Positions 22,029 through 22,163 of a stretch of DNA of 64,000 bases are shown in pieces; position 1 is the first letter of the stretch; each line of letters begins with the position of its first letter. Position numbers and translations under genes: made by a program. Origin of the DNA: Micromonospora pallida (GTDB lineage: Bacteria > Actinomycetota > Actinomycetes > Mycobacteriales > Micromonosporaceae); assembly GCF_900090325.1 (NCBI RefSeq), contig NZ_FMHW01000002.1:2170001-2234000 (forward strand), given 5' to 3'. The notes under the pieces are model-generated. The model searched no databases. It worked only from the letters and a program-made list of their open reading frames with translations, and was not told the DNA's origin.

Positions 22029-22163
22029 TCAGTTGCAGATAGCTGCCGGCTTCTGGGTCACGAAGGACTCCCGGCAGCTGGTGAACAGGCTGCCGGCCGT
22101 CTTCTCCGCGAACCGACCGGCCTTCACCAGCGTCGGCCGCTCGTAGGCCACCTTCTTCGTCAT
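22029..22163 (-). CDS. Lasso peptide precursor, predicted class III topology
   Basis: A 44-residue ORF, ATG 22163, TGA 22029, with GAGGTGG upstream. Leader residues 1-23 contain Tyr7, Pro10, Leu12, Gly16, Phe18 and the -2 Thr22, the full B1 recognition pattern YxxPxLxxxGxFxxxT. The core is residues 24-44. It begins GSLFTSCRE, so Gly1 to Glu9 gives a nine-residue ring. The tail is SFVTQKPAAICN. Core Cys7 is in the ring and Cys20 is the penultimate residue, so one ring-to-tail disulfide is possible, the arrangement that defines class III (type member BI-32169). I do not recognise this core sequence. The product is unverified. Confidence 0.93.
   Translation of the reverse strand: MTKKVAYERPTLVKAGRFAEKTAGSLFTSCRESFVTQKPAAICN

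Follow-up and report, generated by a model that had tools for sequence, protein, structure and literature searches.

BI-32169 is a lasso peptide of 19 residues with a 9-residue ring, Asp9, and cysteines at positions 6 and 19. The precursor described here, encoded in a 64,000-nucleotide stretch of Micromonospora pallida DNA (hereafter, the window), resembles it in having a core with one ring and one tail cysteine 13 residues apart and a predicted 9-residue ring, but departs from it in carrying Glu9 and Cys7/Cys20 in a core of 21 residues, as opposed to Asp9 and Cys6/Cys19 in one of 19. In the accessible part of a recent paper, BI-32169 is presented as a class III peptide with a ring-tail bond, pseudovenmycin (2025), which may or may not belong to class III, is cited beside it, and the making of lasso disulfides is described as unknown (PMC13352647). 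The part of a 2022 review available to us reports the BI-32169 cluster as unidentified and class III as having very few members, of which very little is known (PMC9266682). It also assigns to class III the peptide 9401-LP1 from Streptomyces sp. ADI94-01, with a cluster of A-D genes only, the single class III cluster described there (PMC9266682). Like the window's core, that of 9401-LP1 has a ring cysteine and a tail cysteine; in 9401-LP1 these form one disulfide, shown by a 2 Da gain with DTT. Its core differs in having Ala1, Cys5/Cys18 and 18 residues (PMC5974421, in part). In 9810-LP from Streptomyces sp. ADI98-10, the leader, which ends in KKTA, is very similar to the window's, and the core likewise carries Gly1 and Glu9, but it has no cysteine and only 16 residues (same source).

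Class I clusters offer a second comparison. As far as the consulted portions of the sources go, those for sviceucin, MS-271 and aborycin combine, as the window does, a membrane gene (there DoxX-type) with a thioredoxin-fold gene (PMC9266682, PMC6409603), aboE encoding DoxX and aboF DsbA in the aborycin cluster (PMC6409603). They differ from the window in their two disulfides, Cys1 core and several ABC genes. Here, we describe a locus that apparently represents an unreported class III lasso subfamily with its own redox pair.

Precursor and core

A preliminary description of this DNA had placed a lasso precursor at 22029..22163. The coordinates hold and the strand is corrected to minus, on which 22163-22029 translates as MTKKVAYERPTLVKAGRFAEKTAGSLFTSCRESFVTQKPAAICN; read on the plus strand, the same interval gives a translation unrelated to a lasso precursor. 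The other sequence features given there are borne out by the minus-strand translation: a 44-residue ORF (gene A), the leader motif YxxPxLxxxGxFxxxT, a Thr at -2, and a 21-residue core with Gly1, Cys7, Glu9 and Cys20. The leader ends T-A; leader, core (GSLFTSCRESFVTQKPAAICN) and stop codons occupy 22163-22095, 22094-22032 and 22031-22029, respectively. That the precursor is beyond chance is confirmed by its scores against Pfam PF19397 (39.7 bits, cut-off 22.6) and NCBIfam NF033521 lasso_leader_L3 (27.6 bits, cut-off 19), and by five same-length homologues (E 8.6e-21 to 1.6e-13) in a single-sequence search of a 5.8-billion-protein database. The core itself, which the preliminary description had not recognised, was not found as a string in a literature search of 5.39 million papers, without most subscription journals and without supplements, which makes the term unreported a provisional one.

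A profile search of the protein database returned 13 proteins, of which 12 were accepted as precursor homologues and one, P0015, was set aside as an outsider without cysteine. Aligned with the window (13 precursors altogether), they all show the core pattern GSLFT[SN]CRES[FY][VLI]TQKPxxxC followed by one residue (two in P0012), with Gly1, Cys7, Glu9 and the tail cysteine invariant and with variation at positions 17-19 and 21. Two further distinct precursors with the same pattern, L024 and L025, come from genomes G580 and G582. At the codon level, pairwise comparison of the window with loci L005 and L006 reveals 1-5 synonymous and 0-1 amino-acid changes in core codons 1-16, and 2-3 amino-acid changes in codons 17-21.

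Among 354 genomes of the same bacterial family, a precursor search gave matches in 12, comprising eight strong matches, the window's among them, with E values of at most 1.1e-25, two weaker, tandem precursors in G351 (locus L028), and four weak ones (L018, L019, L020 and L022; E 3e-4 to 7e-3) that were rejected, one of these being a second match in a genome already counted. Three of the rejected matches, read as L031, L032 and L030, were unlike lasso precursors, and the fourth, read as L033, had no cluster gene matched. In 298 genomes drawn from the order, the window was the sole strong match, with two weak ones (L003 and L004); plasmids and the PDB yielded no precursor match, and viral contigs two distant ones at 35% identity.

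The tandem precursors of L028 (frames 9195-9344 and 9345-9593) precede a single C-B1-B2-E-F set and are more distant, each with one early and one late cysteine and both sharing the same E-F. The first core, GTIRGCAKELIFARPPYLCS (Cys6, Glu9, Cys19), has a cysteine spacing that we take to be that of BI-32169. The sole acid of the second, GSINPFCSRENWWSVKPYAGGCVG, is at position 10, which implies either a 10-residue ring or a start at Ser1.

The preliminary description had proposed a Gly1-Glu9 ring and a Cys7-Cys20 bond, and this stands as the natural prediction, since the window's core has no acid other than Glu9 and the four residues concerned do not vary in 13/13 aligned precursors or in L024 and L025. 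A residue-1 amine facing an Asp or Glu at positions 7-9 is likewise present in 13/13 aligned precursors, always as Gly1/Glu9. One cysteine (Cys7) would lie in the ring and one (Cys20) in the tail, and the core has no other; class I, defined by a Cys1 core with four cysteines, does not describe a core with Gly1 and two. We put the probability that the product is a class III lasso peptide with a Gly1-Glu9 ring and a Cys7-Cys20 disulfide at about three in four; such a 21-residue product has a computed monoisotopic mass of 2238.06.

Biosynthetic genes, redox pair and exporter

Six minus-strand frames follow one another with short gaps or small overlaps in the order A, C, B1, B2, E, F. The genes for making the ring do lie directly downstream of A, as previously claimed: C, an asparagine-synthase-like lasso cyclase of 609 aa (20157..21986, minus; PF00733, E 2.2e-38); B1, a PqqD-type leader-recognition protein of 86 aa (19888..20148, minus; PF05402, and 88 bits against NF033530 lasso_PqqD_Strm, cut-off 70); and B2, a transglutaminase-fold leader peptidase of 144 aa (19457..19891, minus; PF13471, and 103.7 bits against NF033537, cut-off 33), the single match to B2 at E 0.001 in the window's genome. 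Thus, a lasso-leader precursor and B1, B2 and C genes are all present, C by Pfam only: it scores 232.8 against the cut-off of 300 of the curated cyclase model NF033561, and of the lasso cyclase models that it matched there is none whose curated threshold it reaches. From their families, B1 would bind the leader and B2 would cut it after T-A, whereupon C would link the Gly1 amine to the Glu9 side chain around the threaded tail; Cys7 and Cys20 would then form one disulfide, locking the tail.

The PP-loop of C reads DLSGTDST, one residue short of SGGxDS. The full motif is found in 24/37 same-family lasso cyclases, the short form being DLSGxDST in the window's set and DLGGxDST in a sister set. We reject this feature as a novelty because the one-residue-short motif is shared by 119 of the best 120 of 184 cyclase homologues (17 SGxDS, 102 GGxDS), the remaining one of these 120, P0059, having DLAGLDST, likewise short. 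The short PP-loop is thus common to a large cyclase lineage.

Downstream of B2 are two genes that the preliminary description did not mention. E (18924..19460, minus) encodes a MauE-type membrane protein of 178 aa (PF07291, 75.2 bits, cut-off 27) with about five membrane spans and a CxC in a loop bearing several Arg. F (18366..18914, minus) encodes a membrane-anchored thioredoxin-like protein of 182 aa with a CGSC motif; its matches to thioredoxin families are weak, falling slightly short for PF00578 (25.9 bits, cut-off 26) and PF00085 (17.3, cut-off 23.5) and far below cut-off for the curated PDI, MauD and ResA models (for the MauD/TlpA type, TIGR02661, 16.9 against 188.6), with E 6e-4 against ResA chains. 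The class III-like core and this gene pair occur together in 9/354 same-family genomes, across three genus groups, and in all nine clusters read the genes run C, B1, B2, E, F, with E-F 3' of B2 and both the CxC of E and the CxxC of F intact. MauE has been noted in other candidate RiPP clusters, in a source accessible in part (PMC7794033).

Considering their conservation and neighbourhood, which are the only grounds for it, we lean slightly towards a role of E and F in handling the core thiols, most probably by oxidising them or by maintaining a suitable redox state until the tail has been threaded. Where this would take place is weakly suggested by the distribution of charges. Lys/Arg residues flanking the anchor of F number none before and 2-3 after it in 9/9, and the CxC-bearing loop of E contains 3-5 in 9/9, by a simple hydropathy and charge count that is crude (F start codons were picked by pattern, and in L026 one of the E spans escaped detection). 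Under the positive-inside rule, Lys/Arg-rich flanks lie on the cytosolic side, so the F thioredoxin domain and the E CxC loop may face the cytosol in all nine clusters; MauD, built like F, is usually taken as periplasmic. By extension, E and F might form a cytosol-facing membrane redox relay, the ring-tail disulfide being set, or held open, during threading in the reducing cytosol, the site of action of B1, B2 and C, a scheme that we regard as unlikely and which would differ from class I clusters, where the DsbA-like protein apparently faces outwards. The same charge count, by placing these redox centres in what may be a reducing compartment in 9/9, lends itself to a reading in which E and F keep the cysteines reduced in the product. 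We consider this very improbable indeed, given that 9401-LP1, which also has a ring and a tail cysteine, is oxidised, as its 2 Da gain with DTT indicates (PMC5974421, in part).

Also absent from the preliminary description was the lack of an adjacent ABC exporter. Seven of the nine clusters have one, upstream of A in six and downstream of F in one (L028), but none was found in the window's neighbourhood or in the 19 kb around the closest relative, G453. The ABC genes at 29271-31949 were considered and rejected, being of importer type. The best exporter-like gene in the window's genome, about 155 kb away, shares 45% identity with the L005 exporter, carries one in-frame stop within the match, and is probably not its orthologue; the L005 and L006 exporters are 74% identical, but since that of L028 is only 51% identical to that of L005, the window's exporter may have moved and diverged.

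The missing exporter raises the question of whether the window's cluster is decaying and makes no peptide, the more so as F is abutted at its 3' end by an RHS-bearing stretch of 6 kb. All six ORFs are nevertheless open and the core is conserved, G453 likewise lacks an exporter yet keeps all six genes (C, B1 and B2 85-93% identical to the window's), and the exporter may sit elsewhere in the genome; we therefore judge decay improbable and retain the class III product as the preferred reading. The stretch in question, about 6 kb (12356-18394), is absent from the otherwise colinear G453 (L023) and comprises an RHS-repeat/pretoxin-HINT frame seemingly without its 5' part (13758-18266) plus two small ORFs. 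Because the right edge of this alignment gap falls inside the 3' end of F, the last F residues differ from those of G453. As to other neighbours, a sulfatase gene (PF00884) is located at 24169-25902, and the frame after it, ending at 26912, looks by eye like a formylglycine-generating enzyme; a BTAD-type regulator is encoded near the cluster in L005, with matches near the cluster in L026 and L027.

Core cysteines, MauE and cyclase lineages in the bacterial family

In 43 of the 354 same-family genomes, the search for lasso B2 gave a match reaching 1e-8. The 40 loci at 1e-17, namely the nine window-type clusters and 31 new ones, were scanned; seven weaker matches (E 5e-10 to 3.3e-9), four of which were fetched, stayed outside the count. 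The leader pattern located a core in 33/40 loci, the seven without one being dropped, as were off-cluster pattern matches in the window, L005 and L038. MauE genes were located by PF07291 in 38 genomes. B2 has a MauE gene within 10 kb in 10/13 clusters with two or more core cysteines, in 0/20 with Cys-free cores and in 0/7 without a found core (core Cys against MauE, Fisher p 3e-6, related clusters not being independent). The next-nearest MauE places, in G325, G335 and G402, are 13-20 kb from B2, and among 52 weaker ones the nearest is 166 kb off, so that the census is unchanged. On the tree, the cysteine trait shows 2 changes and only 2 independent pairs; the statistical link between core cysteines and MauE thus comes down to just two lineages.

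In L047, the tenth cluster with MauE, the core, CTPWGDCRDFLGCARAPICI, is of class I; this cluster differs from the window in that its thioredoxin neighbour is DsbA-like, with five Arg before the anchor. Three clusters have a cysteine pair and no MauE near B2, and none of them matched the E or F profiles: L043 (G557:C1:5708800-5725800; core GLDTDEPCEDWFWGEPLWC) and L048 (G402:C81:22800-39900; core GLWSGCPRDWFNGLAWIGC, presumably with the spacing of BI-32169), both further class III-like cores, and L049, whose pair lies in the tail only and is class IV-like. These three imply that a core with a cysteine pair does not, as a rule, require such redox genes. Altogether, a single ring and a single tail cysteine occur in at least one core of 11/33 same-family lasso clusters with a readable core, nine belonging to the window's clade and two (L043 and L048) to another lineage. 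The earlier assertion that class III peptides are very rare consequently holds only for characterised peptides, and does not extend to class III-like cores in the genomes of this family.

An alternative explanation that leaves the peptide as predicted is that its disulfide forms spontaneously, with E and F acting in export, quality control or yield instead of bond formation. In line with this, no MauE gene lies near the clusters of L043 and L048, whose cores carry a ring and a tail cysteine. Furthermore, in the accessible part of the 2022 review, sviF, mslE and mslF of class I are dispensable for disulfides, as sviceucin was still made upon sviF deletion and found only in mycelia, and deletion of mslE or mslF only lowered the yield; double-Cys stlassin variants also gave disulfides (PMC9266682). 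Retention of E-F in 9/9 clusters and the absence of MauE within 10 kb in 20/20 Cys-free clusters speak against it, and we hold spontaneous formation to be a serious alternative that nonetheless falls short of even odds, continuing to favour, if narrowly, thiol handling by E and F.

A cyclase was found for 37/44 loci scanned, from which a tree was built. The nine cyclases of E-F clusters form their own clade (100/100), with weakly supported nearest kin (86/56), whereas those of L043, L047, L048 and L049 fall in a separate group (96/91). A single clade of all 13 Cys-core cyclases is rejected at p-AU 4e-6, an optimistic value because the tree was already known when this group was defined. Among the best 120 of 184 proteins from a cyclase search, 17 are 54-94% identical, those that are named coming from Micromonospora, Plantactinospora, Actinoplanes or Micromonosporaceae, and the next are at 47% and less; a cyclase search of a genome contigs database confirmed no relative. 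L043 and L048 served as proxies for the BI-32169 cluster, and the window's cyclase does not share one clade with them, the cyclase of L048, with its BI-32169-like Cys/Asp spacing and no nearby MauE, being of another clade. The tree and the identity gap suggest that the cysteine pair of the window's subfamily probably had an origin distinct from that in the BI-32169-like clusters of this survey, and the comparison points to more than one origin of Cys-pair cores among same-family lasso clusters.

An operon that inherits a class III-like core together with a redox pair, beside BI-32169-like clusters without such genes, constitutes a natural contrast. With redox genes accompanying every related cluster read, this subfamily would offer a clean test of how a lasso disulfide bridge forms.
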